Assembly (NCBI GenBank): GCA_030998015.1
Contig: JARWMV010000007.1
Coordinates: 186,001-250,000, forward strand
DNA length: 64,000 nt
Direction: 5' to 3'
Source: Ceratorhiza oryzae-sativae
Lineage: Eukaryota; Basidiomycota; Agaricomycetes; Cantharellales; Ceratobasidiaceae
The notes below the pieces were generated by a model. That model saw nothing but the letters and a program-made list of their open reading frames with translations. It ran no database searches and was not told where the DNA came from. Below, in pieces: positions 7,216 through 30,993 of this stretch (position 1 is the first letter of the stretch; each line of letters begins with the position of its first letter). Made by a program: the position numbers and the translations under genes.

Positions 7216-7220
7216 TTTTA

Positions 7221-7950
7221 TGTCAAGACCCCCCGTTACTATCCTCTGGTCTTCCTTAAGTAGTGGCTATGTTGATTGTGTTGTCTATTTCCATCTATTG
7301 TGTGTCTCTATTCTACAGTGTGTGGTCAAGGTCCCTGTGGTGGACAAGATAAAGCAAGCTGAGGTCCTCCAGCTTGCTCTCTATTTCTTAAATACTCCAC
7401 AAGATGTGAGTCAGACCTTTCCACAGTCTGCAGTGTTTACAGGTCATGTGAGTGGTTTGGTGCTGAGTAAACAGTGTGGATACCTCACATGATTGTCTAT
7501 AACCCTTATATAAGTTGCTCTTAGGGTTGTTGCAGCTCCAAATCTTATAGAGCTGTGCAAGGTCCCAGGGTCATGTGATTTAAGCACCAAGATCATGTGA
7601 TAACTTGCTCCTTGCTCCTCATTACAAAGGAGAGATTTAAGGGGAGTGACTTAGTAAGCACTCAGCTAAGCGCCAGGGTCACATGACAACTTGCTCCTCA
7701 CTCCTCATTACAAAGGAGAGATTTAAGAGGAGCAACTTAGTAAGTGCCAAGATAAGTGCTGGGGTCACATGATAACTCACTCCTCACTCCTCATTACAAG
7801 GGAGAGATTTAAGAGGAGCAACTTGGTAAGTGCTGAAATAAGTGCCAAGGTCATGTGATCTTGTTTACCCCCTGTTCACCTTGGGAGGTAATGTTACTCA
7901 TAGTAGATTGACTCCTTAGTTCCATTATGGCTGGTGAGTAAGTCATGACA
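7221..7950 (-). repeat. Element B 3' LTR (730 bp) with internal 86-bp tandem units
   Basis: Ends are TGTCAAGACC on the left and AGTCATGACA on the right. It holds three tandem units of about 86 bp carrying CTCCTCATTACAAAGGAGAG and an E-box-like octamer (TCATGTGA or TCACATGA at 7571, 7593, 7679, 7765 and 7851). The partner LTR is 86 bp longer, which fits one extra unit. Confidence 0.85.
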
Positions 7951-7967
7951 TCATCCCCCTCTTTGAG
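7951..7967 (-). promoter_or_regulatory. Polypurine tract of element B
   Basis: On the coding strand CTCAAAGAGGGGGATGA directly precedes the 3' LTR. A purine tract touching the LTR is the plus-strand primer site of LTR retrotransposons. Its presence 15 kb from the end of pol shows that the cargo lies inside the element. Confidence 0.75.
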
Positions 7968-8061
7968 CATGTCTTGGGGGATCCTGAGACATGTTAGTCT
8001 CTTGTTATGGTGTTAAGGGCAAAAGATGACCATTCCCTCTTCATAATAACAATAAAAGAGA

Positions 8062-8188
8062 TTCTCATGTATTGAGAGGGGTTAAGGGTGCTGGATTCAA
8101 ACCTGCAACCTCTAGAGTTGTTTGATTTGCTCAGCTGAGGTAAGGCCCAGTCAGGCTAGACCCCTTAACCCCTTACACTACATGAGAT
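8062..8188 (-). repeat. Inverted-repeat element with tRNA-like promoter boxes
   Basis: Arms ATGTATTGAGAGGGGTTAAGG (left, split by mismatches) and CCTTAACCCCTTACACTACAT (right) face each other across about 75 bp. On the minus strand the interior holds TAGCCTGACTGG, close to a tRNA A box, and GGTTTGAATCC, a good B box, about 50 bp apart. This could be a degenerate tRNA-derived SINE or a mutated class II tRNA with a long variable arm. The acceptor pairing is imperfect. It lies between the polypurine tract and the Rep-like gene. Confidence 0.4.
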
Positions 8189-8297
8189 TACTTGATGTAC
8201 TCTCATTACACTTTTGTCCTTGTTATTTAGTGGGAGGCATGAACTTAGTTAAAATCATTGTAGCTTTTTCTTTATTTTTCTTTATTTTTTATTTTTT

Positions 8298-10330
8298 TTA
8301 AGGGAATACAAAAAACAGTTGGCTTCCTGAATGTACCCATTCCACATTCTTTGCTACCCATGCCCCCCCTTCCTCTCCCTCAATGTCCAACCAGCACTTG
8401 GTAATGGCTGCTCTGCTGTTGCCAAGGATTACTGTTAGTTGGACCCTCATTGATTTCCCATGTTGGTATCAGCTTGTGAAATCTGCTTTGTACTGGCTCA
8501 GGGCCTTGTACAAGTACTTCCCATTTGTGTTGTGACCCTCTGGATGCTTCCTTGCAAAGCACTTAAGTAGTGGCCGCATTGACAGTTTGGTGCTATGCAG
8601 TATGTATTGAGTGTTCTAGTTACAGTATTTGCTATGGTCTATCATGGTTGATGAGATAAAGCAAGCTGAGGCATCCAGTCTTGCTTTATCCTTCTTATAT
8701 ACGCCTGTGGCTGCAGTGGCTGCAGATGTATTACCTAAGCCCAATCTGCAGTAGGTGCAGGTTATATACAGTACTATGGGTTAGGTAATTGTTTATCTTA
8801 AGTTTGTGCAGCTCCAAATCTTATAGAGCCACATGAGGTCTGAGGCGTAAGTGCTGAGGTCACATGATCCTGCTGTAAGTGCCAAGATCATATGACAACT
8901 CACTCCTCACTCCAAGTAACAATGGAGAGAAATGCTGGAGCAAGTTCAGGGTAACCACTGTTAGCACTGAGGTCACATGATCCTGCTGCAAGTGCCAAGA
9001 TCATGTGACAACTCACTCCTAGCTCCAAGTAACAAGGGAGAGAAATGCTGGAGCAAGTTCAGGGTAACCACCATAGGTGCCAAGGTCACATGACCTTGTT
9101 TATGGCTTGTTCCACTTAGGAAAAATGCCATAAATCCATAAAAATATTCAGTTACTCTGTTATGTCCATTTGATGGGTCATAACAATTTGTGTGGACCAT
9201 GTCATCTAGGATCCATATGTCAGCATCCTCTGACAGTGCCCCTGCATTCCATACATTGCACATTCAGCTGTGGGAGCCTTTTGATTGTGCATAGGCCATC
9301 TTCCCAGTCCCAGTCTCTCCTTTGATCACCAGGATGCAATGGTGCCTGCCCCTTTCCTTCTTCTTGATTTCCTGTGCAAACCACCTGTCTGCCTGTTCTA
9401 CATGGTCCCTCACTTCTGGTGTCTCTAGTTGCACTGGTATTGCTGGTATCAGGCTGGTGTCTTCCCTGTAGGTGTAGTCTGCATATGCCTGTACTGAGTT
9501 CCAGACTGTTGTCATTTGGAGTGGTCAGAGTTGTTTGTATGTTCTGTAAAACTCCTCCTTTGTGGCTGCCCCTACAATCTCCTCTCCATCCTCTAGGTCA
9601 GCCTGTTGCTGCACCACTTTCCCCTCCAGCCCTTAACCAGGATTCCTTCCAGGGGCTCTAATGTCAGCTCCCCTCCCATCAAGTCCTCCACCTCCTCTCC
9701 ATTTTCACCCACAGCTTTCCAGAGGTAGTGGAAGGCGTCACATGCTGGGTTACCACCTGGTCTGTCTTGTAGATCCTTTTGTAGGATGTTGGGGTGGTTC
9801 CCTTTGTAGTCCCAGAACCTTGTGTTCTGTGTGTTCCAGCTGCCCTTCTGTTCCTGGCTGATTGTTAAGGTGTGGATGTGTAGGGGTTTTGCTGGGTTGT
9901 AATTTGGCTCCTCCAGGTTGTGGTGTTCCACAACTGCTAGAGTTGCCCAATGGTTTGGTTGGTTTTGGCAGAAGGCCTTGTACCAAGCCACAAGCCTGGC
10001 TGTTGGCTTGTTCCTCAGCATAGACCATGTAAGTAACACTGCTTGTGACTGGACCTGAAAACATGGTGTTTGGCTCTGACCCCCCAGCTCACCTGTTGTT
10101 GGCTCTTTGGACTCTTGATCCATCAGCATATGCTGCAAGGAACTTGGTGTGTGGGCTTGGCTTGCTTCTGAGGGCCTGGGAGATGGCAAGGCCAGCCTCC
10201 ATTGTTCACTTGGTGTGTTTTGCCTTTGTGTCACCCTGCTTGACCCAGTTCTGATAGAGCTCATTATGTAAGTTTGGAGAGGATGAGGAGCAGGGGGAGG
10301 GCATGTAGATGTGGTGCCATATTTTGGCAT
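8298..10330 (-). pseudogene. Rep-like gene of CRESS-DNA (rolling-circle) type, decayed and interrupted
   Basis: The likely role was rolling-circle replication initiation: nicking of single-stranded DNA by an HUH endonuclease, then unwinding by a superfamily 3 helicase. The first open block (10330-9593, 245 codons) has about 95 residues of N-terminal extension, then AVLLTWS (residues 97-103, motif I), HIH (151-153, motif II; DNA 9880-9872), GNHPNI (177-182) and YLWK (202-205, motif III with the nicking Tyr; DNA 9727-9716). The helicase part is in another frame: Walker A GETGTGKM with Met for Ser/Thr near 9,310, and Walker B DIWILDDM near 9,210. A solo LTR at 8528-9185 cuts it just after Walker B. 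The C-terminal part continues to a TAA at 8298-8300. Damage: a frameshift near 9,600-9,625, TGA at 9264-9266 and 8469-8471, and one TGA near 9,530. Similar genes occur in geminiviruses, genomoviruses and integrated copies in fungi. Confidence 0.75.
8528..9185 (+). mobile_element. Solo LTR (658 bp) inside the Rep-like gene
   Basis: Ends are TGTTGTGACCC and GGGTCATAACA. The 5-bp duplication ATTTG is perfect (8523-8527 and 9186-9190). It contains a TATATA box near 8696 and two units of about 88 bp that include CAAGTAACAA(G/T)GGAGAGAAATG. Parts (AAGTAGTGG, GATAAAGCAAGCTGAGG) resemble the element B LTR, so the families are related. The same family is at 10700-11350. Confidence 0.9.
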
Positions 10331-10380
10331 GGGGGGTGGCCTTAATAACCCTGTTTTCTTTGTTTACCAGTCATGTGACT

Positions 10381-11585
10381 GGTTGGGGCTGAGGTTGTGA
10401 CTTTGTGATGATGCATCTCCAAGGGGTGCCCTTCCTGTGTTCCCTTGCATTGGCCTGATCCTCACTGGCACTTGGGTCCTCTGCTTACTCACTCTGGTTG
10501 GTGCCCCCTCTCCAACCCCTCCAGTATAAGGGGATAGTGAATGTGCATGTGACTTCTCTGGGTCACATGAGCATGTTGCTTTGTTGTTTCTTTAGCTGTC
10601 ATGCACATGACCTTTCTGTGTCATGTGACAGTTTGTTGTGATGTCTATTATTGTTGAGAAGGAGGCTGTGGTCTTGTTATGATGCATCTCCAAGGGGTGT
10701 GTCATGACCCTCTGGATGCTTCCTTGCAAAGCACTTAAGTAGTGGCTGCGTTGACAGTTTAGTGTTATGCAATATGTATTGGGTGTTCTAGTTACAGTGT
10801 TTGCTATGGTCTATTGTGGTTGACAAGATAAAGCAAGCTGAGGCATCCAGTCTTGCTTTATCCTTCTTATATACACCTGTGGCTGCAGTGGCTGCAGATG
10901 TATTATTTAAGCACAATCCACAGTAGGTACAGGTTATATACTGTACTATGGGTTAGGTAATTGTTTATCTTAAGTTTGTGTGGCTCCAAATCTTATAGAG
11001 CCATGCAAGGTCTGAGGGGTAAGTGCTGAGGTAACATGACCCTGCTGTAAGCACCAAGATCATGTGACAACTTGCTCCTTGCTCCAAGTAACAAGGGAGA
11101 GAAATGCTGGAGTGAGTTCAGGGTAACCACCATAAGCACTGGTTAAGCACTGAGGTCACATGACAACTTGCTCCTCGCTCCAAGTAACAAGGGAGAGAAA
11201 TGCTGGAGTGAGTTCAGGGTAACCACTGTAAGCACTGGTTAAGTGCCAAGTCACGTGACCTTGTTCATGGCTTGTTCTGCTTAGGAAAAAATGCCATAAA
11301 TCTGTAAAATATTTGGTTACTTTGTTATGTCTGTTTGACAGGTCATAACAGGGTGCCCTTCCTGCATTCCCTTGCGTCAGCCTGATCCTTGCTGGTGCTC
11401 AGGGCTTCTGCTTACTCACTCTGGTTGGTGCCCCCTCTCTGACCCCTCCAGTATAAGGGGATAGTGAATGTGCATGTGACTTCTCAGGGTCATGTGGGCC
11501 TGTTGTTTTGTTGTTTCTTTAATCCATGTGCACATGACTTCTCTGGGTCACATGAGAGTTTGTTGTGATGTTTGTCACTGTTGGC
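10381..11585. repeat. Tandem duplication of about 280 bp between Rep-like gene and gene X
   Basis: Two diverged copies lie head to tail: about 10381-10660 and 10661-11585 (the second holds the 10700-11350 solo LTR). Each has GATGCATCTCCAAGGGGTG, CCCTTCCTG, GTTGGTGCCCCCTCTC, CCCCTCCAGTATAAGGGGAT (a TATA-like box directed toward X) and several CACATGA/CATGTGAC motifs. Its place between divergent genes suggests a duplicated bidirectional promoter or origin region. The function is inferred only from position. Confidence 0.65.
10700..11350 (+). mobile_element. Solo LTR (651 bp), second copy of the 8528 family
   Basis: Begins TGTCATGACCC and ends AGGTCATAACA, with perfect duplication GGGTG at 10695-10699 and 11351-11355. 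An intact TCACGTGA octamer survives at 11251-11258, where other copies show TCATGTGA or TCACATGA. Confidence 0.9.
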
Positions 11586-11651
11586 TGGCACTGCCATTTA
11601 TCTGCCCTTGCAATCACTCCCTTCTCCCTACTTCCATCTCTAACATGCAAA

Positions 11652-12051
11652 TCATCTCACTTAACTACAATCCTCTTAACTGCACCTGTTGGTCTATGGA
11701 CCCTGGTGATTATTGTGCCTACTGAAACTCAGTCTGCAATGCTGCACTTGAGGACTTTGAGGCTGATGTTGGGGATTGGGTGGTGTATGGGAGTATTCAT
11801 GAGTTTTTTACTTCTCTTCTCTACTCCATTGCCTTTTGTGCTGATGCTTTTTTGCAGAGGGTCATCCTATGATTGATGAGCAGGATCACTTGGCCACCCT
11901 TGCTGAATTTTTTGAGGAGAGGTCAGCCCCATTATTTGAGAACATGGAGCCCTTGGAGGTTTCAGGTAATAGTCCTCTGCAGAACTTTATTGCAGATCTT
12001 CCTGGGGGGTACACTCCATGGCTCCAGTTTAAGAGTTCTCACCAGGGTGTG
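11652..12051 (+). pseudogene. Gene X, 5' part: unknown protein divergent from the Rep-like gene
   Basis: A plus-strand frame starts at ATG 11652 (MQIISLNYNPLNCTCW), passes one TGA (TAC TGA AAC, one change from CGA) and runs through an acidic and aromatic stretch ending ADAFLQR. It changes frame near 11,860 and continues as HLATLAEFFEERSAPLFE up to SSHQGV. There element D interrupts it. After the insertion the same frame continues for about 20 codons to a TAA at 20838-20840, which supports a real coding past. A TATA-like box lies upstream in the duplicated region. I do not recognise a family; a capsid-like or accessory role is only a guess from its opposition to a Rep-like gene. Confidence 0.45.
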
Positions 12052-12308
12052 TGTGAGGCACATGCATGCCACACACAAACAGCTCAGCCTGTGGCCATGC
12101 CCATCTTATCTAACACGGACATGTTCTCAGTTATCTAATGTACTCAACCCTTATGGTCTCCTCTTGTCTATTTAAGCAACCTGTATGTACATAGTATTCC
12201 ACACACTACTCTTGAAATACAAGTATCTTAGCAAGTCAATTGCTTGCCTTAAGCCTTGACAACACCAAGAACCTTGTCCTCAACAGTTCAGTCCTATCAG
12301 ACCTCATA
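12052..12308 (+). repeat. Element D 5' LTR
   Basis: 257 bp, starting TGTGAGGCA and ending CCTCATA (one change from CCTCACA). TCTATTTAAGCAACC serves as a TATA-like box, followed by CTCTTGAAATACAAGTATC. Same length as the 3' copy. Confidence 0.92.
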
Positions 12309-12858
12309 TTTTTTGACTTTTGCAACACCCATACTCAATGTTTCAGCAACCTTCGACATCGTTGCATCCACCTGGAATGACAACCTTGAACCCCAGCAAA
12401 TCAAAATTTTTCTTTTACTCTTGACTTTATTCCTATAACCACCAAACCCCTTGGGACTGATCACCCCTTGGAAACCCCTAAACACTCAATAAGTTCAAAA
12501 ACCCATACATTTTCTCTTTTTTTTTTCTATTCCTATTCCCCTTCCAAGACACCTATTCTCCCCATTTTCTGCTAGCTAACTATTTTCAGCCATGGCCATG
12601 ACACACACAAAACGCAAGGCTTTAGGGGCCACTGCCCCAGGCCTTGGGTCCCTAGACAACCAACAACATAGACCATCAAGGAGCTGACAGGTTATGATGG
12701 TCAAAATTCCTGATGGAAGTTGCAGGTTCGAACAAGAGGGATCAGCTGGCCTTGATATCCCCAGATTGTTTGCTGCAAGCCTTGTCAACTACAGCAGGGG
12801 GTCTGACAAGCCCAAACTTGAATAGGACAGCAATGAGTTTGATGAGCAGGTAACCAAG

Positions 12859-15100
12859 ATGCATATAACCATCATTGACAAGTGCACTGATGATGAGTTG
12901 TGCCTGTCTGGGGCAAGCATTGTGAAAGCATGCCCCCCATTGGAGAGTATAGGCTCATCGCCATACCCCAACCCTGTTGTACCAGGACAAGCCACAAGGC
13001 CCACCTTGTGCCCCCTCCCAGAGAGACCCAACCTCAGTCACACAGCCATGCTGTCATTTAACATTGGACACAAGGTGAACACAAGGGAGAGTGTGACCAG
13101 CACCCTGCTCCAAACTCCCAGCCACAAGGCAAAGAGTTATTCCACCACCACAAGTAGCATTAGGCTAGACAGAGTGAAGTATTTCATGGGTAGTGTAATA
13201 AAAGAAAATACATTAACTACTACATACACTGAGCCCGAGACCAAACAGAGGTCTGATGAAATGTTGAAGCAGACCCTGATCAAAGCTAAAAGTAAAAAGT
13301 CAGATAAGCAGCAACATGTGGAAGATATGGTGTACCCGTGAGAGATCATCAAGGATTGCAAACACCTCCAGAAGGCACAGCTAACATTCTCAGAGGAGAT
13401 CCCAAATGAAAGGACTCTCCTCAAGGAGGTCAAAGAGCTAAGCAAAAACTCTGGCCATGAGTTGTTGTTGCTCTGGGAAGATGAGATCTACCCAATCCCA
13501 AGCAAAAAGCCTGCTATGGAAGAATGGGAGATATCTGGATTGCAAAGTGAAAGCCAAGATGCAGGCCCCTCATACTTTGCCAAAGAAAAGTGGGTGGCAG
13601 AGGACAATTAACCACCAATATGGCATATAAAGAGGCCAAACAAGAGACAACAGTGTTAGTGCCGGAACCCAAAACCAAAGCTGAAGGGCATACCTTGAAA
13701 GAAGAGAAGAAAGCCCAAAGGGCACACCCATCGCTTGGGATTAGGATTGACAATGTCTGCCCCAAGATGCCCAAGGCACCCCCTAAAACCCCAGCCAAAG
13801 CAGAGGATCTGTGGGCTAGCATTGCAGCACTACCAGGAGGCAGGTACTTTGCTGATAAAATGCAGGCCAAAAGCTTCAGCCCAGACCTGAGCAAATTGTC
13901 AAGCACACATACAACAAAGGCAAACCCACCTAGCAACAGTTCCTTGTTGAGCAGCTCCAGCTCAGACAGCTCAGACAAAACTGGAGAATATGACAGCTCA
14001 AGCAATTCTGACAGCTCAGATAACTTGAGCAGTTCTTCAAGCTTGTCAAGCAGCTCCTTGAGCTCAAGTGACAAGAAGAGGAAGCATAAGAAGAATAAGA
14101 AAAGTGCAAGATACATACACTGAAAGAAAGAACGCAAAGAGTGTAACTGCACAAAGCACCAGGAGCTAAGGTGTAGACTCTGCATAGCATGCTGAGCAAA
14201 CATAAAGCTCAAAGAGCCTAAGCCATACAACGGAAGTGCCAATTATGATAAGTTTGAGCTCTGGGTCTACAAGTTTGAGCAATGGCTCAAAGAGTCTGGT
14301 TTCTGGGATAAGAAGGCCATGCAGCATATAGCCATGTTCCTAATGGGAAAGCTGCCCAATGTTTCATGGACTTTGTAGCCCCAGACCCAAAGAAGTATAC
14401 CATTGACTCCATTAAGATTGGGCTATTTGTGTACTGCTTCCCACCCAATCTTAAATCGCAGCTACAACAAGAGTTTAAGAACACACAACAAAATGAAATG
14501 AAATTCATTGATAACCTACACCTACTACAAAGGCTACAGCAACATATGCCCAACATCACAGACAGACAAATCTGTGTCAAATTATGGGACATGGTAGAAT
14601 CCTACCTCAAGATTAAATGGATCAAGGTTGGGATCGACACTGAAACTGCCAACATCGAGACCATGCAGGAAACTGCTGAGCACTTTGAAGCAGCCAAGGA
14701 AGTGAAGTGAAGGGTGCAAGCCATGGTAGAACAACATGGTTGTCAGTTCTTTAGGTGATTGGGTAGGCACCTATCCAGGCTAGTGGGGAGCCCACCAAAC
14801 CCACCACATCCCAACCCAGCACCACAGAACAACTCAAATGTGGCACATTCATGCCCAAGGCCACCTCACCCAGCCAGGAACCAGGCAGGGCCCTTGCATA
14901 CACCTAGACATCAGGCAGGAACATTGAGGCCTCAGAATAACCAGGCAGGACCATCAAGGCCCCAGGGCCACAATCATGACTTGAGGCCTAGGCTGGCTAG
15001 ATTGAAGATGTTGCCTGAGGAATGAAACAAGCTTAGACCAGCAAACAAATGCTTTGCCTGTAAGGAAACAGGACATACCGTGAAGGACTGCCTGTCCCAA
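12859..15100 (+). pseudogene. Element D gag, fragmented
   Basis: This is the structural protein region in several frames. A first block (12859-13341) is of unknown sense. A second (13590-14123) ends in a Ser/Asp-rich tract (SSSSSDSSDKTGEYDSSSNS) and a Lys-rich tail. The capsid core follows, with NYDKFELWVYKFEQWL near 14,250 and the block 14366-14710 (KKYTIDSIKIGLFVYCFPP and following). The zinc knuckle CFACKETGHTVKDC is at about 15049-15090. Stops at 13339-13341, 14121-14123 and 14708-14710 and frame changes mean no continuous product. A Pro/Gln/Arg-rich linker fills 14,760-15,000. Confidence 0.8.
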
Positions 15101-18100
15101 ACCACCACAAAACCAACTGGTATGTACAGCGCAGCCCTAAAGCCAATGTATGACCACATTGAGCATTTGCACAAGGAACGGGAGCTCACAAACATCACAG
15201 TAGTGAGCATAATCCCTGATATGACAGGCAAGGCAGAGACTGATAAAAAAGAAGCATCAGATGAGCCAGAGACAGAATACAGCTTGTTAGAAGTCAATAC
15301 TTTGCATGCAGGATTGCTACTCACAGAGATATTGGATGTGATTACCCCCTATGCAAATATCATTGTTACTGACACAGACCAATTCTGTATCACCATGGAT
15401 AATATGATCAGTTTTGACATGACCTATGCAGAAATCACAAGTCAGATCCATGATGTGTTCCTAGTCACAGAGCGATGCACCATGGAGGCTGAAAGTGAAA
15501 ACAATCAGACCATATGTGCACATGAATCTGACAAGGAAGCAGAGGACTCACCAACTGAGGATGACAGTTGGGTAGTCCCATGGAGCAACAGCAAGGATGA
15601 TGAAGAGACACAGAAGCCAATCACAGGCCCAAGCACTCATCTATCCTCTACTCCAACTCAATCAATGGACACATACAAGGAGCTCAGCACTTGGCTAAAT
15701 GCACTATGCATTGGTGACAAGAAAAAGGGACAAGTGAGCATGACAGTACTTGAGTGCAATGCCTCTTGGCCAAGGGACATTACTTGCAAACTCCCAAAGC
15801 TGTTAGTAGTCAAAGCAACAATTAACAAGCACAAGGTACATGCCTTAATTGACACTGGATCAGTTGGTGACTTCATATCTACTACAGTTGTCAACCAAAT
15901 TGCCCTTGAACAAGAAGTGCTAGCTAGAGATGTCTTGCCAGCACGCTGGCATGCTGGCAAGACATCTCTAGTGCTAGCCAAACCCATCAGACTTCAGATG
16001 GCAGTCACGGGATCCAGGAGTGTCATAAACTATTCTGTCACAGCGAAGCTGGGCTTCCAAGGCATCAACAAGATGCACTGTTTTGATGTCATTAATATTG
16101 ATAATTACAATCTTATTCTGGGGACACTGTTCCTATACCAGTACAAAGTTATAGTTTTGTTCAATCCACCCACAGTGTCGATCAGGAGTAAGAACATGCA
16201 ACCAATACAGTGGGAGTCATCCCTAGTACTCGAATCCCTTGCAACACAGCTGTTCAAGGACAAAATTGAGAAACAGAGAGAAGCACTTAGGGAATACAGT
16301 GCTGACCTCTGTAAATCAATGGCTGACACAGTGCTCCTGCTGTTTTGTGTGATTAACCATACAATCCCGATCATAGATGAAAAGAAATGTTATAAAACTC
16401 GACCCATAAAGTGTCCTAAACCCCTAGAAGGACTGTTCAACAAGAAATTCAGAGCTTACCTAAATACTGGTCAATGGGAATACTGTCCAGGAATAAACGT
16501 GACACCAATGATGATCCTTATGAAGAAATCCAAGGATGGCAAAGTTGCTGTAAGAACTGTTTTGGACAAACAAGAGATAAATGTGAACACTTACCACCTT
16601 GCGTTGCTGCTCCCAGACATCAACCAAATCTTAACGGAGGTATCCCGACACCCCTATCATAGCCTCATTGATGGCAAGGACGCATATGAACAAATCTGAG
16701 TGATGCCTGAACACATTGATAGGACACTATTCATGACACTGAACAGAATGATGGTTAGCCACATTATGCAACAAGGGGACTGCAATGCAGGTGTGACATA
16801 CCAAGCTCTGATGAACTACATATTTGCTGATCTTGTCAGAAAGATCATGTTTGTCTACCTTGACGATATCATTATATTCTCAGAAACCACCAAGGAGCAT
16901 GAGAAGCACATTAAAATGGTATTTGACATATTGAGATGGGAGAAACTGTACCTTAGCCCATCGAAAATGCAGCTCTTTGCTGAGTGTCTTGAGATCCTTG
17001 GACATGTCATCACGAGCAAGGGTATGATGACGGACCCACATAAGGTTGATACAATTGAAAAATGGAAAGTACCCACCTCAAAAGAACAGCTCATGAGTTT
17101 CCTAGGAGCAGTGGGATACCTAGTGCCAAATTGTGCTGATATTTGCATACATATGGCTGTTCTATCAAAACACACAGCAATTATGCAGCTGTGGAGATGG
17201 GAAGCAACTGAACAGCATGCATTTGAAAGAGTTAAGAGCATTGTGTCAGAACATTGCAATATGAAACAGGTAGCGTTGGACTACTCACCCAACACCCCAC
17301 CCATCAACCCGACAACTGACACTTGCTGCACTGGAGCAAGCAGAGTTGTTAGCCAAGGTGAAGACCTGAAAACCATGAAGATCGCAGCATTCTGGTCAGG
17401 CAAATTCACAGCAACCCAACAGAATTACCTGGTCCATGAACAAGAATGATTAGTGATTAAAGAATCACTTGAGTGATTTAAGCACTTACTACAAGGTGCC
17501 CAAGTCCAAGTATTCACTGATCACAAAGCGCTCAAGTACTTTCAGACACAGAAAAACTTGTCAGCGCAACAAGTATGATGGTTAGAAAAGATCAGCAAGT
17601 TTGATATAGACGTACAGTACATACCAGGTGAGACAAATGTCTTCGCCGACACCCTATCACACATGTACAGCAACGAGCCAGAGGGAGTAGTACAAGACAA
17701 GTTGGAGTATGTAGCCAACACGGACCCAGGAGGACCGCATATACTTGTTGGTTCAGTACAACAAGACAGAATATCAAACATGTCACTCACTGAGCCCCTG
17801 TATGTTGGAGACGAAGTCCGAGCCAAGCTTGAAGCTAGACAAACAGCCGAAAAGCCAAGGCAAAGTCAGCACGAATGCAAACAAGTAGAGAAATACCTGA
17901 CACAGCCACAGAGTAAGCACCGAACAGCTAAGGAGGCAAAGCCGATGCTTGAGATCAAACCAGAAGACGTAGAGTTGGTCAAAGCCAAGCAGAACAAATC
18001 AACGAAAGTAGAACCGAGTGAGTCGCCAAAGGTTATTGAACTGGAGGAGAAAACTACTCACCGAAAGCCGAAACCCGAGCTCAAGGTTGAAACAGCACTG

Positions 18101-19540: not shown

Positions 19541-19567
19541 CTAGACGCATACTGTGAGGCACAGGGC

Positions 19568-20772: not shown

Positions 20773-20777
20773 GTGTG

Positions 20778-20921: not shown

Positions 20922-22310
20922 TTAGGTGGGGTTGTATTCTTCAGTCAAGGCTTCCTCCAGATTTTTCACCAATTCCCCATTCTCCCATTTCTCATAATCC
21001 TCCACCTCTTGCTCCTCTGCCATCCTTATCAATGGTTTCTGCTCTTCCTCCACCAAGACTAAGGATTCCATGCTGGCCATTAAGTTTGTTGTGGGGTTGT
21101 CTTCTTTTGGGTGCACCCTGACCCAATTTCTGAAGTCTGCCAGGTTTGCCTCTTTCAGTTGGTGTCATGACCTAGACCATAATGTGGAAATTATTATGAT
21201 TTTTATTATATTTTTATGATTTTGGACAAGTCCTGTTTAATCAGATATATGCATAGAATTATACACTCTGTTTGTATCTTCCAGAATATTCTGTTATGCA
21301 GCACCATTCTGATATTGTATGATAGTTGTCTCACACCATGGTGTATTTGATATTAGCTACTTGTATGAATATATAAGGGAGAGTCTGAGAGCCTTAAGCC
21401 TCAGAAATTGACCTCCTGTCATATTCCTCTACTACCTGTAAGACACATAGTCAAGCAGCCCTTGCCCAGCTCTCTTCAGAGCATAGTGCCCTTACTATAA
21501 GTCTTCCTCCACACATCTTATCACAACCCAGATCCTTGTTGGATGTTTTCCCCTTGACATCATGACTTAGACCTCTGGCATTGTTGCCTATAGATCTCCC
21601 ATTGTCCACTTAGACATTTGGGTTATCTCCTCAGGTCATAGCTCTGACAGTTGGATTGCAGTGAACATTTCATCTGTTGTTGTCTCCTCCAAGAGACCTG
21701 TGTATGGGGCTGCTGGTAGTATCTTCCAGTCTTCCAGTAGCTGCTGGGCCCTGATTTTGACCTGCCACTCAAATGTATTTGAATTTGCCATTTCTGTAAT
21801 TGGTCTGCCGTTTCTCCCCTTTTTCTTTGCTGCCCTGGCAACTGCATTGACTGTTGGTCCTAAAAGTCCATTGATGACATACATTTCAGTGTGCATGATT
21901 GTGTTTTGTGTCTTTGGGGCTCCTGGACCACACCATTCTAGTATGCCTCTCTTGGGGTCCAGGTACTTGTTTGTGCTTATCCAGTTCTGTTTGTTCTTTT
22001 ACTTCTTTGGGATGTGCTCCAGGTTAGCACCAGGTAGGATCCTTTGTGCATACCTTTTTGCTTCTTCAACTGAGTAGCATTGCATGTCTGGCCATTCTAT
22101 CCTGTTCTCCTTCCCATAGAGTGTTGCCTGCTGGTTCCTTTTCAGGTGTCACTTGGCAGGTAGGCTAGGTGGCCAGTTGTATAGTGGCACATATCTGTTG
22201 TTTGTGGTTGGTTTGGTGGCAGTGGCATATTGGTAATGTTGTTGTGTCAGCCTATAGGTGGTGATCACAGGAGGGGGGTGTGTCTCTTCCCCCTGTTCAT
22301 GCTTTCCTTC
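20922..22310 (-). pseudogene. Gene Y: unknown protein in frame after element B pol
   Basis: The coding frame is the same as that of the chromodomain block and follows its TAA (22311-22313) without a gap, so Y may originally have been the C-terminus of pol or a read-through ORF. No Met is near the beginning. Readable parts include YVPLYNWPPSLPA, SVEEAKRYAQRILPGANLE, AAKKKGRNGRPITEMANSN and an acidic C-terminus (KWENGELVKNLEEALTEEYN) ending at 20922. Internal stops are TGA at 22149-22151 and TAA at 21999-22001. A solo LTR (21163-21649) interrupts it. Its 492 bp with duplication is a multiple of three, and the frame is identical on both sides. No family is recognised. Confidence 0.55.
21163..21649 (+). 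mobile_element. Solo LTR (487 bp) in gene Y
   Basis: Begins TGTCATGACCTAGACC and ends GTCATAGCTCTGACA, with perfect duplication GTTGG (21158-21162 and 21650-21654). Contains ATGAATATATAAGGGAGAG as a TATA region. The same family is at 24911-25429. Confidence 0.92.
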
Positions 22311-22997
22311 TTATAGCTGGCCCCTTCTTTGCTTGTTCTTCTTTGCTTTTGTTCTCAAGTCATTGTTTTTATGAATCAACTGGCCAGGCATTGGTGCATC
22401 AGGTAAGCACCTGTGCAAGTCATTCAGAACCTTGCTCATTTTGGCAAACTTCTCTGCCTGCTCCATTGTGTCCTTGATTGGGTCATACCCCTTCCACCTT
22501 ATTTGGTAGTACAGCATGCCATTCTGCCATTCCCAGTTTACCACATGGTCCACTTCATATTCCTCCTCCCCTTCTTCTGTTATGATTGGTGGGGGTTTCA
22601 CCTGCCTGCAGTGGAAGTCCTTATCTTCCTTGACTGGAGATAACAGGCTGACATGGAATACATTGTGTACTCTTATTGTTTTTGGCAATTCCAATCAGTA
22701 AGCATGGGATGAGATTTTTTCTGAGATTGTGAAGGGTCCCCCCTTCCTGTTATCCAGTTTCTTTGCTGGTTGTGTAGAGGAGAGGATTGTTAGCAGGAGC
22801 CATACCTTGTCCCCTACTTTAAACTCCTTCCCTTGCTTTTCCAATGATCTATGTATTTCCATGGAGGCCTGTGCTTTGTCCCAGATTTTAGACATCCTTG
22901 CCTGCATTGATTGCACTGCTGGGACTGTTTCATTGCTCTGGGTCTCTTTCAGTATATCCCATGTTGGTGATCTTCCATAAAAAGTTTTGAAGGCTGT

Positions 22998-24303
22998 TGT
23001 TATGGGTCAGGGTACACTTGAATATCTAGAGCTTAAGCAAATGTAGATATGTTAGTATACACTAATTGTACTCAATACTTCTTAGACTAGTGTAAGAAGG
23101 CTCAAAGTAGTTGCAATGCAATCAAGTAACACTCAAGGTAGTCTTAATCTTTCACAGTGTAAACTGACTAATTTATAGGTATAAAGAGCAAGACTACTAT
23201 GGTCAGGTTCCCTTAGATATCTTAAATGTAGTTCAGCCCTAGTTGCTTGGACTGATACTAATCTTAATACTAGACTTAGGCAATAGCTTATAGGATAGAT
23301 GGTGGGCTGCCTAATGCATGTACTTCCTCAGCTACAGGTATTTAGATTTCCTCTAATAGCTGGTACTTAATGTCATGCTCAATCAGGCAATATTGTATCC
23401 TTATATAACTCTGTATATAAGATACAATGAATCAGACAGTATATAACTAATATGGTACTTTATTCCTCAGTACTAGTTATATAAGAAATCACACACAGAC
23501 AAGAGAAAAATAGAAAGAGAAAAGAAACCAATAACCAGTTTGGGTTGAGTAGAGGAGGGGAGGTGGTCTGGAAGGGCCTTAGAGGAGGTCCTTTTATACC
23601 CTGAGGAGGGCATTCCAGAGCCAAATAGATACATGCATGCCAGTGCAATCATCAAAAGAGGGTACTGCTATACTTGGGGTACACCCTAGCCCAGTATAGG
23701 ATATGAGAGTAAAGACAGGGTGTGGATTGAAGGCATTGATGTGTCTGAGACCTGCTATTGGCTTGTAGATCATATTATCATAGTATATACATGTAATGAA
23801 CAGAGGCTACATCTCAGTGAGTCATAAAGTGAGTCAGAGAAGCTTCTGGATCAATTTGGAAGGCTCTCCTGACTCACTGGAGTCATTAGATCTTGATTGA
23901 TGGTCCAGTAAGATTCTAATGATCTTCGGGCCATTCCGACACGAGGATCCGGTGGATCGCGACGATCTTCGGGCAGCAGATACCGCCGAAGATTAGCTAT
24001 CGATAGAGCATAAGATCGCTTTGATAGCGTAAGCGGTTGCCGAGATATGAGCGGTGCGATGTAGTAATCAATATCTCCTGATAAGAGGAAATATCACAAC
24101 CTCTGTATCTCTCTGAGATCTTATCGTAAAATCTTAATAAAATATGCGTTGGAAAGCGGGAAATTTGTACTATTTAATAGAGCGGAGAATAGTACAATTT
24201 GGAGTGCATACAAATTTAAGTATTTCACAAATTAATTACAGAGGCATTGCTTGAGGTTGGCAGAGCAGACTAAAATCATAGAAAATGTTAGTGATCCATA
24301 ACA
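22998..24303 (-). mobile_element. Long solo LTR (1,306 bp) in element B integrase
   Basis: Ends TGTTATGG and CCATAACA are perfect inverted repeats, and the duplication GCTGT is perfect (22993-22997 and 24304-24308). In its sense (minus) orientation it has a TATAAAAGG box near 23,590 and an AATAAAG signal near 23,463. CpG sites cluster at 23,926-24,060, unlike the CpG-poor surroundings. An inverted relative is at 34001-35308. Confidence 0.93.
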
Positions 24304-24910
24304 GCTGTTTGCCCTGTTGCTGAATTTAAATGGTTGTTATGACAAAATTCTGTGATAGGTAGCCACTTTGTCCAGTTGCCTTGCCTGTAATTGCAGAAGG
24401 TTCTTAAAAACCCTTCTACCTGTTGGTTTGTCCTTTCTGATATGCCATCTGTTTCTGGGTGAAACACAGTAGAGTATCTGGGTTCTATCTTTAATGCTTT
24501 GTACAGTGCACAGAGGAATTGGCTGTTGAAGGTTGGGCCCCTGTCTGATACTGTTGTCTTAGGGGTTCCATGCAGCCACCATATTTCCTTGATGAAGATT
24601 TCTGCTAACTCTTCTGCATTTGTAGATTCCAGGCATGGAATAAAGTGGGCTTGTGTAGAGAATCAGTCTATTACTGTTAGTATGCTGTCATATCCATTTG
24701 ACTTTGGTAATTTTACAATGATGCCATATGCTATATCTTCCCATGGATTTTCTAGGATTGGTAGTGGTTTGTGTGGGGCTGTCTGCTTGTGTCCCTTGCT
24801 TCCCTGGCACACCTCACATGTATCCACATATCTGTTAACCTGGGCTTTCATTCCTGGCCAATAGTATTCCCTTGATACTAGTTCTAGTGTTCTTGCATGA
24901 CCCTGATGTC

Positions 24911-25429: not shown

Positions 25430-26545
25430 ATGTCCTGTGATGGCTGAGTCATGGAATCTGCTTAACAGCTCCAGTCTGAGCCCTTTATAATTTGGGATAT
25501 ATATCTTCCCATCATACCTCAGTATCTTTTCATTGATTTTGTACCTTCTGAACTCCTTCCTTACAGATGGGGGTAGTTGTTCTTTGTTCTCTACACTCTC
25601 CCATAGGATCCAGATGGTTTCATCTTCTTTCTGTGCTTCACACACCTCATCCAGGAAACTGCCTTTAATTTCAGCTTTGAACCCTATGAATCTGTCTGGT
25701 TGGATCGTGATTTGTGGTTATAGTGGGAATTCCCCATGATCATGTCACCATGACAATGCATCTGGTTTCTGTGACATCTTGCCTGGTCAGTAAACTATTT
25801 GGAAATTAAATGAGGCTAGTAGAAGATACCATTGGGCATGTCTTCTATTCCATACCTTAGCTTCCTGCCAGTACTGGAGGTTCTGGTGGTCAGTGTACAC
25901 AGTAATTGGGATTTTGGTCCCTTCTAATAATAACCTCCAGTGCTCCAGGGCTTGTACAATTGCAAGTAGTTCCTTGTCATATGTGTCATAATTTCTTTGA
26001 GGTGGTGTGAAGCTTTCTGATAGGTAGGCTATGGGATGTAATCTCCCATCCTTTCCTTTCTGGCTCAGTACTGCCCCAAGTGCCACTCCAGATGCATCTG
26101 TTTCTTTAATATACAGTTCCTCTGGATTTGGGTGTATAAGTACTGGTTCCTTTGTGATTGAATCCTTGATTTTGTTGAATGCTTCCTCTTCTTTTTCTGT
26201 CCACTGGAATTTGGCATCCTTCTTGGTTAGTTCTGTTAGTGACTTTGCTTTCTCACTGAAATTTTCCACCCATCTCCTGTAAAACCCTGCAAGTCCTAAG
26301 AAGGCTGGTACTTGCTTGACTGTAGTGGGAGCTTTCCAGTCAACAATTGCTTTTATCTTATCCTTCTCCATAGATATACCTTCTGGGGAGATGACAATGC
26401 CTATGAAACATGTTTCTGTTGTAAAGAAATGACATTTATTTGGTTTTAAAAATAGGTGGTTTTGGCAAAGTCTTCTCAGGACTTCTTTCACATGTTCCAC
26501 ATGTTCCTCCCTGTTTTTTGAGTAAACTAGGATGTCATCCATATA

Positions 26546-27219
26546 CACTGGGTGACAAAAGTCTTGCAGCACTTGTGTTATGGCTCTGGGCAGTCAGGAG
26601 CAAAGGCAAAGCACAACTTTTTGTATGGCATATTTAGGGTACCATCTAATACATATATTGCAATACTTTGTGAGCATCTGGAGTGCATACACAGGGCACA
26701 AGGGGAGATGTGGCACAGGGGTGGTTTTTAAGGTCATTGTTCCAGGTGTCCCTGAGCTTAGCTGTAGTAGTAGGTATTATAGTGCTGAGCCTTGTGACTG
26801 CAACAGGCATCTGGGCTTTTGTGTGCCTGCCACCATTGCAGAGATATGGGCAACTGAAAGTACTGTTTTTGGGTGTTTTTGGCCAAAAAGCACCAAAATT
26901 GCCGACTTTGGGCCACCATTGCTCAATAACAGGGGCATGCACACAAAAGCTCAGATACTCATTGAAATCTCAAAGCTCAGTGCTATCATGCCTACTACTA
27001 CAGCTAAGCTTGGGGATGCCTGGAACAATGACCTTAAAAACCACCCCTGTGCCACATCTCCCCTCATGCACTGTGTATGCACTCCAGATGCTCACAAAGT
27101 GTTGCAATATATGTATTAGACAGTACACTACATATGTCATACAAAAGGTTGTGCTTTGCCTTCGCTCCTGACTGCCCAGAGCCATAACATGAGTGCTGCA
27201 AGACTTTTGTCACCCAGTG
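26546..27219. mobile_element. Tc1/mariner-type foldback MITE (674 bp)
   Basis: It starts CACTGGGTGACAAAAGTCTT and ends with the inverse, TTTTGTCACCCAGTG, flanked by TA (26544-26545 and 27220-27221). The inverted arms cover almost the whole element: the segments around AATGACCTTAAAAACCACCC appear on both strands. No transposase is present, so it moves only with outside help. It sits within the catalytic Tyr-Met-Asp-Asp codons of element B RT. Confidence 0.92.
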
Positions 27220-28276
27220 TATACTACCATGGAATCCCCTATCATGTCTCTGAAGAGTTCATTTACAAACCCTTGGAAGTATGCCAGTCTGTTAATGACC
27301 CCAAAAGGCATCACCAGGCTTTCATAGATGCCATATTTTGTTTTGAAGGCTGTCTTCCATTTGTCACCTTCCCTAATACCAATATTGTTGAATCCCCATC
27401 TGATGTCCATTTTGGTGAATATCACTGCTTCTCTTAGTCACTCTATAAGCTCTGTTTGGACAGGCATGGGGAAATGGTAAGGCTTTGTGATTGCATTTAG
27501 CTTCCTGTAATCCACTACTAGTCTTAAGCCACCATCTGTCTTGTTGACATAGAAGCATGGTGCTGCTATACTTGACTGGCTTCTTCTGATTTTCCCATCC
27601 TTTAGTTCCTGCTTAAGGTGTTTTTCTAGAGCCTCTGATTCTGCAGGTGTCATTGGGTATGTTTTTGCTGGTTTTGGTAGCTCTGCCCCTTCAGTCAGCT
27701 TGATAGCACAGTCAAATTCCCCTCTGTGGGGGGGCAATTCCCTGAACCCTTCTTCCTGAAAGAGGTCTGAGAATTCCACAAATTCCTCTGGTATTTGAAC
27801 CTCTTCTATTGCTGCTTTCCCTGTGATTTGATCCTTGTATGTTATTGTCAGGTCTTGCCACTCAATGACTGGTTCAACTTCATCCAACCAGTCTTTTCCT
27901 AGTATGATTTCAGTGTCTCCTAAGGACATCACATACAGGGTGCACTGGAGCATTTTGCCCTCCACTTTGATATGGAGATCCACCTTTTCTGATATGGCAT
28001 CCTTGATCTCCTTTCCATCTATTGCAATTACTGACTTTTTTTTATCTGACTTTGTGGTCTGTATGTTCTTTTCCTTCACATAGTCTTTGTCAATAAAATT
28101 TTGGGAAGATCCTGAGTCTATGAGTGTCTTGGCCAGTTCCATGATTCCCTTGGCCAATGTGTATATTACAAACTGATTATTTGATTTCTTTAGGTAATAT
28201 ACATTGGCCTTGAGGGGTTGGGTAGGATCCTCTGACATGGATTCAGTGGATCCTTCTAGTTTTCTGACTCAGTTTC

Positions 28277-30056
28277 CTAGTTATCTTCTTGGTTATTCTT
28301 CTCAGTACTTGCTTTCCCTTGGATCTTGTTTTTGTCATAGGTCCATTGTCCTTGACAGTCCTTTACAACATGTCCAGGTTTACCACATTTGATGCAAAGC
28401 CATTCTTTTTGGTGTCTATCCTTTTCCTCCTTTGGGATCCTAACTAGGTTAGTTTGTTTACTTTCCTGTTTTGTTTTGAAGGTGTTGTTCTGGTTCCTGT
28501 TGCTATAGGGGTTCCAGTTCTGGGGGTTCCAGCTAGAGGTCACTGTGCTTGTTCCAGTTGGATTTAGTTTCTGGCTTGCAAACAACATATCATCTGTTTT
28601 GCATGCAATTGTAATCCATTCCTCCAGAGTGGGCTTTTCTTCTCCCATGACCATAGATAATCATAGTTGCTCCTTTTACACTTCTAGTTTGAGTCCTTCC
28701 TTGAACCTATCAATTAGGGCATCTTTGTTCCAGTCCACTTCCTGTTGCAGGGTCCTAAACCTTGTGACATAGGTAGCAGCACTACCAATTTGGGTGAGTT
28801 TACTTAGTTCCCTTACTGCCTTCTCCTTTTTGACTGGGTTGGAGAAGTTATCTAGGAATGCCTTTTTGAATGCTTCCCAGGAGGATAGGTGGGGGTGAGC
28901 CTCCTTTTGTCAAAGTTTCTTAAGGAAGGGTTGCACCCAATTTGAGGCTTCTCCACTTTCCATATTCATCAGGGTGCTGGATATTTTCCTGTTGTCATTA
29001 AAGGTTCCTTCATCATAGTCTGCAAAGTAAATCACCATTTTCATCAGAAAGTCTTCAGCCCCTTTTCCTTTTTTGCCATTGAAAGCATCTGGTCTTTTTG
29101 TCTGTGCTTCTTTGGGGATGGATACTCCTGCTGTGGTGGTCTGGTTCATGAAGGATTCCTTTGTCATAGTAGTCCTCTTAGGTTTTTTCTCCTTTGGTTG
29201 GACTGTTGATTCCCCCTGGAATGATCTTCAGACAAAGGGTGATGCTGATCTAGAAGATGCTTGTGATTCTCCCTCAGGTGTGGGGTGGTTACTTGTGTTA
29301 CCTGTGGTCTCCCTCAAACTTCCCTTTGATCCATGGTTTCATCAACAGTACAGCATTCTTTTGTTGGTGCAAGGTATCATTTACTGCTCCAACTATCTCA
29401 CTGAGATTTTTTGTCATCTCCAATACCCCTCTTTCAATTCTTGTAACAGTATTCAGGCTCTCTTGTGAGTAATTTTGGGATGTTATTGCAGTATTGGATA
29501 TATCATTGAACTTCTTCCCATAATCAATCAAAAGATTTCCACATTTTTCTGATGAATTGATTGCCCTTTGTAACCCTTCTTGGTTGCTTTCCCTAAAGTC
29601 AAATAGACCCCTTCAAAGGGTAGTGGCAATTATTTGTACAGGGGTCAATGATGCTAGGGCACTGGGTTGTTGGTTGACTATTTCCCCTGCTTGGTTTGCA
29701 AAGGACATTTGTGGTACTGCAGTGTCCCCTTTGTCTAACTTGCCCCCTTGATCATATATGATCTGTGTCATTTCCTCCACCTTGTCTGTGGAAGTGTTTG
29801 TGGCTGGTGGTGCCCTGTGCCAGCCACATGGTGAGCTGCCAAAATGGAAGGCTCCTATCTGTTCATGTAGAGAGGTATCCCAGCAGGGAATTGGTTGTAT
29901 TATTGGTACTGGTTCTTGTGGCATTCCCCCTGGTACTGATTGGAGAGTGGTGTCTGCTTGGTCATTTTTGTTTGATGTGATTGCTGGTGATTGAGCCCTG
30001 CTAGCTGCAGTGCAGCTCATTGATCTTGTTTGTGGCCTGGATTGCCACTGCACCAT
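28277..30056 (-). pseudogene. Element B gag
   Basis: Starts at ATG 30056, about 120 bp inside the 5' LTR. The N-terminal disordered part (147 codons) is followed by TGA at 29613-29615 and continues in frame (29531-29298) with a helical region (TRIERGVLEMTKNLSEIVGA). The capsid is at 29167-28910 (AFNGKKGKGAEDFLMKMVIY, NWVQPFLKKL) in another frame. The nucleocapsid block 28654-28277 has the CCHC knuckle CIKCGKPGHVVKDC, at about 28,390. Frame changes and stops make it non-functional. Confidence 0.85.
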
Positions 30057-30177
30057 AGATTCTGTTTGTTCTCTTATGTGTCACAGGGGTTAGCTGGTGT
30101 CTCTTGTACTCAGCCCTTAGTATCTGTGCAAAACACTTATGTTACACCACTAGTTAAGTGTAAAGCTTGCTTCATAA

Positions 30178-30993
30178 TGTCAAGACCCCCTGTTACTATC
30201 CTCTGGTCTTCCTTAAGTAGTGGCTATGTTGATTGTGTTGTCTATTTCTAACTATTGTGTGTCTCTATTCTACAGTGTGTGGTTGAGGACCCTGTGGTGG
30301 AGAAGATAAAGCAAGCTGAGGTCCTCCAGCTTGCTCTCTATTTCTTAAATACTCCACAAGACATGAGTCAGACCTTTCTGCAGTCTGCAGTGTTTACAGG
30401 TCACATGAGTGGTTTGGTCCTGAGTAAACAGTGTGGATACCTCATGTGATTGTCTATAACCCTTATGTAAGTTGCTCTTAGGTTTGTTGCAGCTCCAAAT
30501 CATATAGAGCCACATAAGGTCCCAGGGTCACATGATTTAAGCACCATGGTCATGTGATAACTCACTCCTCACTCCTCATTATGAAGGAGAGATTTAAGAG
30601 GAGCAACTTAGTAAGCACCAAGATAGGCGCTGGGGTCACATGATAACTTGCTCCTCACTCCTCATTACAAAGGAGAGATTTAAGGGGAGTGACTCAGTAA
30701 GCACTCAGCTAAGTGCCAGGGTCATGTGACAACTTGCTCCTTGCTCCTGATTATGAAGGAGAGATGTAAGAGGAGCAACTTAGTAAGCACCAAGATAAGC
30801 ACCAGGGTCATGTAATAACTCACTCCTTGCTCCTCATTACAAGGGAGATATTTAAGAGGAGCAACTTGGTAAGTGCTGAAATAAGTGCCAAGGTCATGTG
30901 ATCTTGTTTACCCCCTGTTTGCCTTGGGAGGTAATGTTACTCATAGTAGATTGACTCCTTAGTTCTGTTATGACTGCTGAGTAGGTCATGACA
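30178..30993 (-). repeat. Element B 5' LTR (816 bp)
   Basis: TGTCAAGACC to GGTCATGACA, followed by TTTTA (30994-30998), matching TTTTA before 7221. It carries one more 86-bp unit than the other LTR. No clear tRNA-type primer-binding site follows it on the coding side (TTATGAAGCAAGC), so self-priming or a decayed site is possible. Confidence 0.88.

Follow-up and report, generated by a model that had tools for sequence, protein, structure and literature searches.

A Ty3/gypsy chromovirus lineage of Ceratorhiza oryzae-sativae with a probable CRESS-type Rep gene between pol and the 3' LTR

Element B, at positions 7221–30993 (minus strand) of the 64,000-nt window analysed here (Ceratorhiza oryzae-sativae, GCA_030998015.1, contig JARWMV010000007.1, 186,001–250,000, forward strand), belongs, in decayed form, to a large lineage of Ty3/gypsy chromoviruses with the standard order LTR-gag-pol-Y-(X antisense)-Rep-hairpin-PPT-LTR, where PPT is the polypurine tract. 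RNA-based mobile elements and those based on rolling-circle copying of DNA are normally treated separately, and a Ty3/gypsy lineage that carries a DNA-virus-like replication initiator in many copies and under selection would amount to a stable fusion of the two types. The lineage is a concrete place for asking whether retrotransposon circles replicate or are dead ends, and would let CRESS-type Rep genes spread in fungal genomes with no virus infection involved. Since Rep is spread by the element, counts of endogenous Rep genes in such genomes should not be taken as repeated virus integrations.

Structure of element B

The original prediction had B bounded by related LTRs, a TTTTA duplication and a polypurine tract adjoining the 3' LTR, with Y (same strand), X (antisense) and Rep (same strand) between pol and that LTR, and all of this was borne out in B. 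The LTRs are identical at 670 of 729 aligned positions (91.9%), TAAAA (TTTTA on the plus strand) lies outside both, and a G-rich polypurine tract directly adjoins the 3' LTR. The flanks of B (6892–7221 and 30994–31135) are neighbouring parts of one sister-family LTR (its positions 287–615 and 143–292), and so the site is occupied as expected for a single insertion. Between the LTRs the minus strand of this old and broken Ty3/gypsy chromovirus holds pieces of gag, protease (PR), RT-RNaseH, integrase and chromodomain, followed by Y and Rep:

30178–30993, minus: 5' LTR, with TAAAA at 30994–30998
30163–30177, minus: putative primer binding site TTATGAAGCAAGCTT, 11/12 complementary (by eye) to AGCTTGCTTTAT within the LTR, as in self-priming
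28277–28660, minus: gag piece with zinc knuckle CIKCGKPGHVVKDC (by eye)
27438–28268, minus: pol, aspartic protease and adjoining stretch (RVP_2, 2.3e-09)
25787–26593, minus: pol, end of RT and RNase H (RT_RNaseH, 8e-34)
24288–24662, minus: pol, integrase core piece (by eye, and same-place matches in related copies)
22311–22694, minus: end of pol, SH3-like/chromodomain (Chromo, 6.6e-05, 23.2 bits, below the curated cut-off of 25.1)
20925–22148, minus: gene Y, in pieces 22002–22148, 21636–21998 and 20925–21158
about 12052–20770, plus: element A, a separate LTR retrotransposon nested in X and outside the B unit
11660–12054, plus: gene X, antisense, two exons, its end at about 20760–20840 past element A (by eye)
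10364–11640, no strand: X-Rep intergenic region, its conserved block tandemly doubled (10424–10656, 11351–11583), with a Rep-family solo LTR at 10700–11350
9593–10363, minus: HUH part of Rep, motifs LLTW, HIH and YLWK
9186–9557, minus: Rep linker and SF3 helicase part, GETGTGKM and WILDDM, in a frame different from the HUH part
8300–8528, minus: C-terminus of Rep (ILGN), cut by solo LTR 8528–9185
8060–8190, minus: conserved hairpin with tRNA-like T-arm, between Rep and the polypurine tract
7951–7966, minus: polypurine tract
7221–7950, minus: 3' LTR, 730 bp, with TAAAA at 7216–7220

In B, Rep (10363–8300) is fragmented: its frame changes, it contains stops, and a solo LTR interrupts it. Two solo LTRs nested in B carry CAAAT (8528–9185) and CACCC (10700–11350) duplications, read by eye, and their pieces mostly share 76–82% identity with the LTR from a younger copy that carries Rep. 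Another copy, C32, measures 10.6 kb from outer LTR end to outer LTR end.

The lineage across the genome

The pol and Rep matches in the 48.8-Mb genome each come from one search yielding at least 150, and those of Y, at least 150 in number, comprise 150 rows and one more; pieces were merged before counting (pol ends 150 to 148, Y 151 to 150, Rep 150 to 148). Y, X and Rep are not consistently absent from copies of the family: among the matches listed, Y lies within 2.5 kb downstream of 140 of the 148 merged pol ends, and Rep within 4 kb downstream of 121 of the 150 merged Y matches on the same strand; as controls, Rep was upstream of Y in 2 cases and on the opposite strand in none. Complete pol-Y-Rep triples number 112, starting from the 148 merged pol ends and again among the matches listed. 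At the 30 Y loci examined, the chromodomain is upstream in all and antisense X is present in 28.

Copies bounded by target duplications also exist with Rep inside, paired LTRs and perfect 5-bp duplications enclosing it in three of the six copies checked, and the LTRs of two copies are 97.9% (C238) and 98.6% (C250) identical. The chromovirus assignment draws on LTRs with a short target duplication (in B and these three others), the PR-RT-RNaseH-integrase-chromodomain order, and a primer binding site and polypurine tract.

A sister family and the gain of the X-Rep module

In a sister family, pol-Y is followed directly by the 3' LTR without X-Rep (four readable of five copies): in these four, Y is followed after 104–130 nt by the polypurine tract and LTR, and the fifth matches Y across 51 residues only. 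Neither the hairpin nor the intergenic block was found in the five copies. Given this family, X, Rep and the covarying hairpin were most likely gained together and then kept. Set beside the conserved anatomy of the Rep lineage, its pol-Y-PPT-LTR order points to an ancestral insertion, in which a module made up of X, a Rep of the geminivirus/genomovirus type, the intergenic region from which the two diverge, and the hairpin would have entered between Y and the polypurine tract, to be copied and selected together with the element ever since. Two readings had been offered as alternatives, a composite element or a CRESS-like module that entered the 3' region and was then carried along, and with the sister family having pol-Y only, both hold. 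We regard this anatomy, and acquisition of the module by an ancestor, as very probable; with the homology of Rep added and mechanism left out, the combined account still merits good confidence.

The Rep gene and selection

Rolling-circle initiators of the CRESS type are defined by HUH motifs and SF3 motifs in a canonical order, and the Rep sequence has HUH motifs I, II and III, the last with YxxK, followed by SF3 Walker A, B and C. LLTW, HVH, YLWK, GETGTGKT, WILDDM and ILGN are present in five of six younger copies, the sixth having one stop and no match to the motif II pattern. In an alignment of 21 relatives, some partial, H92 is invariant and H94, Y143 and K146 are each found in at least 90%. 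Rep is about 429 aa long and its open frames are mostly 429–454 aa, and 34 of 105 Rep matches are without a stop, 29 of these spanning residues 1 or 2 to 397. On the ordered motifs and sub-threshold profile matches, Rep is very probably homologous to CRESS Reps. Those Rep relatives bearing organism names are all Ceratobasidium, copies in Ceratobasidium AG-Ba included; no named virus protein was listed in the Rep profile search, and no relatives of Rep, X or Y were found in viral contigs. Clade support in the Rep tree (29 rows, copies with less than 60% of columns omitted) was moderate, at 88/75 with the bootstrap not converged.

Median dN/dS was 0.26 for Y (26 copies), 0.25 for the pol end (18), 0.24 for X exon 2 (24) and 0.26 for Rep (6), to which the mirror antisense frame of Rep, used as a control, comes close at 0.28. 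Copies were used if they reached 85% coverage of the query, with 90% required for Rep, and codons with stops were passed over; this admitted 26 of the 30 Y copies, 18 of the 30 pol ends, 24 of the 30 X and all six Rep.

Proposed role of Rep and alternative readings

Rep would be expressed from a promoter within the stretch that separates it from X and would nick a site in extrachromosomal circular DNA of the element, so that rolling-circle copying starts; the element might then multiply in two ways, from RNA to cDNA and as DNA circles, prior to integration. Such a rolling-circle role for Rep is put forward tentatively. The fuller scheme of a dual-mode replicon, in which reverse transcription is joined by Rep amplification of circles at a predicted intergenic origin and the hairpin and spliced antisense X control the switch, is more speculative again. 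The candidate origin block in the intergenic region is conserved, yet folds no better than shuffles (z −0.09, 0.22 and 0.95), and no strong hairpin was found in it; CRESS-DNA virus genomes have, close to Rep, an origin hairpin bearing a nonanucleotide. The hairpin downstream of Rep has 97.2% of 250 cells paired and four pairs changed on both sides, against 0 or 1 in slid versions; four of the five measures exceeded the shuffles, the count of further pair types did not; judged from its pairing, its G-U pairs speak for RNA over a DNA origin.

Somewhat unlikely, in our estimate, is that Rep has been repurposed as a DNA-binding regulator or as a suppressor of host silencing or cell-cycle control, with X a partner regulator binding TCAYRTGA. 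Geminivirus Reps can act in this way on host silencing or the cell cycle, and in the one copy counted the motif is common to the 510-bp intergenic region (6) and the 878-bp LTR (6) and nearly absent elsewhere (0 in 2,730 bp of int-Y-X, 0 in 297 bp from Rep to LTR, 1 in 1,196 bp of Rep). A mere binder, however, would need none of the catalytic residues, and five of six copies, like most alignment rows covering these positions, retain the tyrosine used for nicking, the histidines of HUH and all three SF3 motifs.

Less probable still is that X-Rep is a passenger replicon or parasite, with Rep serving its own module and the LTR element merely its carrier. An ambisense CRESS genome has its genes diverging from one intergenic region, as X and Rep do from theirs, and the sister family persists without them. 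Against this, Y lies upstream of 121 of 148 merged Rep matches within 4 kb and of 127 within 12 kb, among the matches listed (a rare free unit may be among the other 21), X has no Pfam match, to a capsid or otherwise, and selection on X and Rep equals that on pol.

That the gene encodes an unrelated P-loop protein with chance motifs is very improbable. Its Pfam matches are all under the curated cut-off wherever one was given, and nSTAND3 and AAA_22, unrelated P-loop families, match more of the 60 relatives (35 and 22) than does Gemini_AL1_M (15, best E 0.001); Gemini_AL1, the HUH domain, matches one (E 0.23). Sequence searches of solved structures gave nothing useful, two AlphaFold models were both poor (pLDDT 34.6 and 60.4), and no significant match came from either of two fold libraries. 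The Gemini_AL1_M match nevertheless spans positions 11–106 of 107 at the expected place, ending at Walker A; six motifs stand in canonical order with the HUH residues conserved as above; and the low-confidence HUH model runs strand-helix-four strands-helix. Among the best 50 rows from the viral fold library, none significant, eight of 23 named ones are replication, Rep or parvovirus non-structural proteins and one further is inovirus Gp2. B by itself, with its several nested insertions, could be read as holding a one-off secondary insertion of a CRESS-like element, a reading refuted by the 112 pol-Y-Rep triples among the matches listed, opposed too by the duplication-bounded copies enclosing Rep, and left with virtually no probability.

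Relation to known elements

No LTR retrotransposon with such a Rep was found in the literature searched. Among fungal Ty3/gypsy chromoviruses those of the Tf1/sushi-like type are self-priming, and the Rep lineage resembles them in its LTRs, 5-bp target duplication, polypurine tract, PR-RT-RH-INT-chromodomain order and primer binding site complementary to the LTR downstream of the TATA box, an arrangement read in three copies other than B; unlike them it adds Y, spliced antisense X, Rep and the hairpin after pol. In Helitrons the RepHel protein exceeds 1,500 aa and there are no LTRs, in contrast to the short Rep with SF3 motifs and the LTR-bounded units here, and so the lineage is not a Helitron. 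Helitrons do place an HUH protein in a eukaryotic mobile element (PMC6431247).

The nearest precedent is the Terminons, giant Penelope-like retroelements of bdelloid rotifers which, according to a review, likewise have rolling-circle Rep proteins among accessory ORFs and for which circular intermediates are suggested (PMC6431247). They differ in their Penelope-type RT, telomeric location, lack of endonuclease and animal host (PMC6431247), and a Terminon is ruled out here by the Ty3-type pol with integrase and the LTR-bounded units. Accessory genes have similarly been gained by LTR retrotransposons of bdelloid rotifers (PMC5408684) and by an orchid Ty3/gypsy element with an m6A demethylase domain (PMC9289625), and none of the captured genes in the available part of the rotifer account is a Rep (PMC5408684). 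A geminivirus-like Rep in many copies across a fungal genome is also described for the Tuber melanosporum transposon, which is bounded by terminal inverted repeats of 37 bp, contains transposase ORFs and shows no obvious target duplication (Liu et al. 2011, PMC3198968). Those Rep-lineage units whose ends can be read are bounded by LTRs with target duplications and not by such 37-bp repeats.

The Rep-carrying element of the window

Element B, an old Ty3/gypsy chromovirus on the minus strand, carries a CRESS-type Rep gene (with HUH and SF3 motifs) and two further genes, Y and X, between pol and its 3' LTR. Its paired LTRs show 91.9% identity across 729 aligned positions, TAAAA stands at the outer side of both, and a polypurine tract (PPT) adjoins the 3' LTR. 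Both flanks match adjoining parts (287-615 and 143-292 of the stretch used) of a single LTR of a sister family, a related Ty3/gypsy lineage, and so all of 7221-30993 sits in one target, in agreement with the original prediction of a single LTR-bounded element with a matching duplication and PPT. The main features are:

7221-7950, minus strand: 3' LTR of B, paired with the 5' LTR
8528-9185: nested solo LTR, for the most part 76-82% identical to its counterpart in a younger Rep-carrying copy
10700-11350: nested solo LTR, with the same relation to that younger copy (76-82% identity for the most part)
30178-30993, minus strand: 5' LTR of B, paired with the 3' LTR

The internal order is gag, protease, RT/RNase H, integrase and chromodomain pieces, after which come Y, X (antisense) and a disrupted Rep. 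B is a fossil, since Rep is spread across frames, contains stops and is interrupted by a solo LTR, and X is cut by element A, a different LTR retrotransposon. The split target LTR lies at 6892-7221 (89% identity to the sister-family LTR) and 30994-31135 (84%). More B-type LTR pieces adjoin B at 31137-31407 and 35712-36010, which suggests insertion at the same place more than once.

Gene order and mobility of the family

Searches of the genome (48.8 Mb, 253 contigs) gave at least 150 matches each for Y, the Rep N-terminus and X exon 2. Thirty Y loci were fetched with 1.5-kb flanks; a chromodomain lies upstream of Y in 30/30 and antisense X is present in 28. The same order recurs elsewhere in the genome, as the original prediction would have it: among the matches listed, 140 of 148 merged pol ends have Y within 2.5 kb downstream, and in 121 of 150 cases Y is followed on its own strand by a Rep no more than 4 kb away, with Rep upstream of Y in two cases and on the opposite strand in none. 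A consistent lack of Y, X and Rep from copies of the LTR family was thus not found; it is in the sister-family copies read that X and Rep were not found. Of the eight listed pol ends lacking a near Y, three belong to the sister family; a Rep is listed within 4 kb downstream for C240, C96 and C56, and a Y 6-8 kb downstream for C20 and C241. In copy C30, a derived form, X is absent and Y leads into a Rep truncated at its 5' end.

The Rep-carrying element moves as a unit. Ends were fetched for six copies, and the duplication-bounded copies sought were recovered in three, with paired LTRs and perfect duplications: C32 (TGCTA, LTR identity about 98% over the part fetched), C238 (TATGC, 566/578 aligned positions) and C250 (GGTTC, 567/575). 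The LTRs of C19 are paired (650/671) with unlike flanks, and for C27 and C31 the fetched stretch excluded the 5' LTR. Directly after the complete 5' LTR edge in C19, C238 and C250 (all three edges read) stands TTATAAAGCAAGC, complementary to GCTTGCTTTAT inside the LTR about 26 nt past a TATA-like stretch, an arrangement as in self-primed elements (compare Tf1). In loci L080 and L082 (C36, C143) Rep-family elements apparently sit inside own-family copies, an LTR end joining internal int/Y sequence.

Probable gain of the X-Rep module

Pol-end searches revealed the sister family at 49-59% identity (C7, C22 and C238 first, more later). A diverged Y follows its chromodomain (L073, 22.9% identity, E 1.7e-10; L074, 20.4%, 3.7e-8), and in sister copies L073 (broken by an insertion), L074, L078 and L079 the PPT and LTR begin 104-130 nt past the Y end; in L077 the Y match spans 51 residues only. 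Neither X nor Rep, nor the hairpin and intergenic block described below, was found in these five sister copies. In a pol-end tree of 29 sequences the X-Rep copies stand apart from the two sister copies included (support 88/75, bootstrap not settled; sister pair 100/98). Most likely the whole module (X, intergenic region, Rep, hairpin) was acquired at a point between Y and the PPT, because sister pol-Y runs into PPT-LTR without it and the X-Rep copies separate in the tree; the alternative, that the sister family lost it, is less simple.

Coding capacity and selection

Rep frames of 429 aa are open in many copies; 34 of 105 Rep rows have no stop, and 29 of these span query residues 1 or 2 to 397. 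The motif order is LLTW, HVH, RFWDFEGxHPNI (akin to the geminivirus GRS stretch), YLWK, GETGTGKT, WILDDM and ILGN. All six tested motifs are kept in five of six copies, the sixth having one stop and an unmatched motif II pattern. The dN/dS ratio, taken as the median over pairs of copies, was 0.26 in both Rep (6 copies, 15 pairs) and Y (26 copies, 298 pairs), 0.25 in the pol end (18 copies, 133 pairs) and 0.24 in X exon 2 (24 copies, 275 pairs). Other frames of the same DNA gave 0.82-1.63, the mirror antisense frame (0.28-0.40) being an exception because third positions are common to both frames. Since the mirror value for Rep (0.28) barely exceeds that of its own frame, coding is better proved there by the similarity of Rep proteins between species.

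A protein database search gave 51 Rep relatives (single query) or 74 (alignment query), the best near-full-length one at 77% identity, by which the window would probably come from a relative within the Ceratobasidiaceae. Those with an organism name are all Ceratobasidium (AG-Ba, 395, 428, 414, 394, UAMH 11750); the remainder, mostly from JGI, bear no organism label, and the protein names given are all 'hypothetical protein'. The Pfam profile Gemini_AL1_M matches 15 of 60 relatives with E 0.001 at best, which does not reach the cut-off, and the match ends at Walker A; other P-loop families match equally weakly in more members. A small ORF in another frame overlaps the Rep start, for example in L036 (from 3207), at the start of L061 and on the minus strand of the window at about 10190-10060; by eye its peptide FYAAYADGSRVRRADRNR seems as well kept as the Rep frame across the genome, B and the Ceratobasidium AG-Ba gene models P0006, P0010 and P0030, which brings geminivirus C4 to mind. 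Environmental Rep models P0023, P0046, P0048 and the start of P0024 hold an in-frame stretch such as CVVGVGDYPLSAPITFHTP in the HUH part, which by eye looks like a retained intron.

X gave no match in a Pfam search. An intron pattern of 50-52 nt (GTATGT...CTAAC...TGTAG in most) occurs in 24 of 28 loci examined, the frame being open over the junction in 20 of the 24. As X is antisense, its intron would stay in genomic RNA despite splicing of the X transcript.

Candidate cis elements and a possible role for Rep

The X-Rep intergenic block CTATCCCCT..TAC.GGAGGGGT..GAGAGGGGGCACC is nearly unchanged between B, where it is doubled, and younger copies, and is a candidate replication origin; it folds no better than shuffles. 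TCAYRTGA is concentrated in this region and the LTR (one copy). Between Rep and the PPT lies a long hairpin that includes a T-arm like that of a tRNA and folds far more stably than its shuffles (C32, z -4.15; B, z -5.02). Across 9 distinct sequences 97.2% of 250 cells are paired, and four pairs changed on both sides versus 0 or 1 in slid versions. The presence of G-U pairs suggests that the hairpin may act as RNA.

In the favoured though tentative reading, Rep would act on extrachromosomal element DNA, with rolling-circle copying starting from the intergenic region and raising the count of integrable copies. Rival readings make X-Rep a passenger replicon or Rep a repurposed regulator; an enzymatic role is supported because the catalytic motifs are retained under selection. 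A bolder, possible reading would give the element dual replication.

A geminivirus-like Rep transposon is already known in Tuber, with TIRs (PMC3198968) where the present element has LTRs, Penelope-like Terminons hold Rep proteins (PMC6431247), and LTR elements with captured ORFs are established (PMC5408684). In the literature searched, which covers few subscription journals and not Repbase, a CRESS-type Rep did not turn up in any LTR retrotransposon. We rate the element as an LTR element with a captured gene, of a known kind, its CRESS-type Rep cargo being new in that literature.

Other repeats and ORFs of the window

An inverted repeat lies at 26542-27223 inside the RT region of B; its arms of 308 nt are 87% complementary. 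The stretches 22993-24300 and 34005-35313 carry the same repeat in opposite orientations (1.3 kb at 95% identity), and by eye L073 and L074 contain sequence resembling it. At 48127-48597 and 49139-49813 are neighbouring similar ORFs (VEFDSPNYFxSCFLGEF...) with, by eye, the look of BTB-type paralogues.
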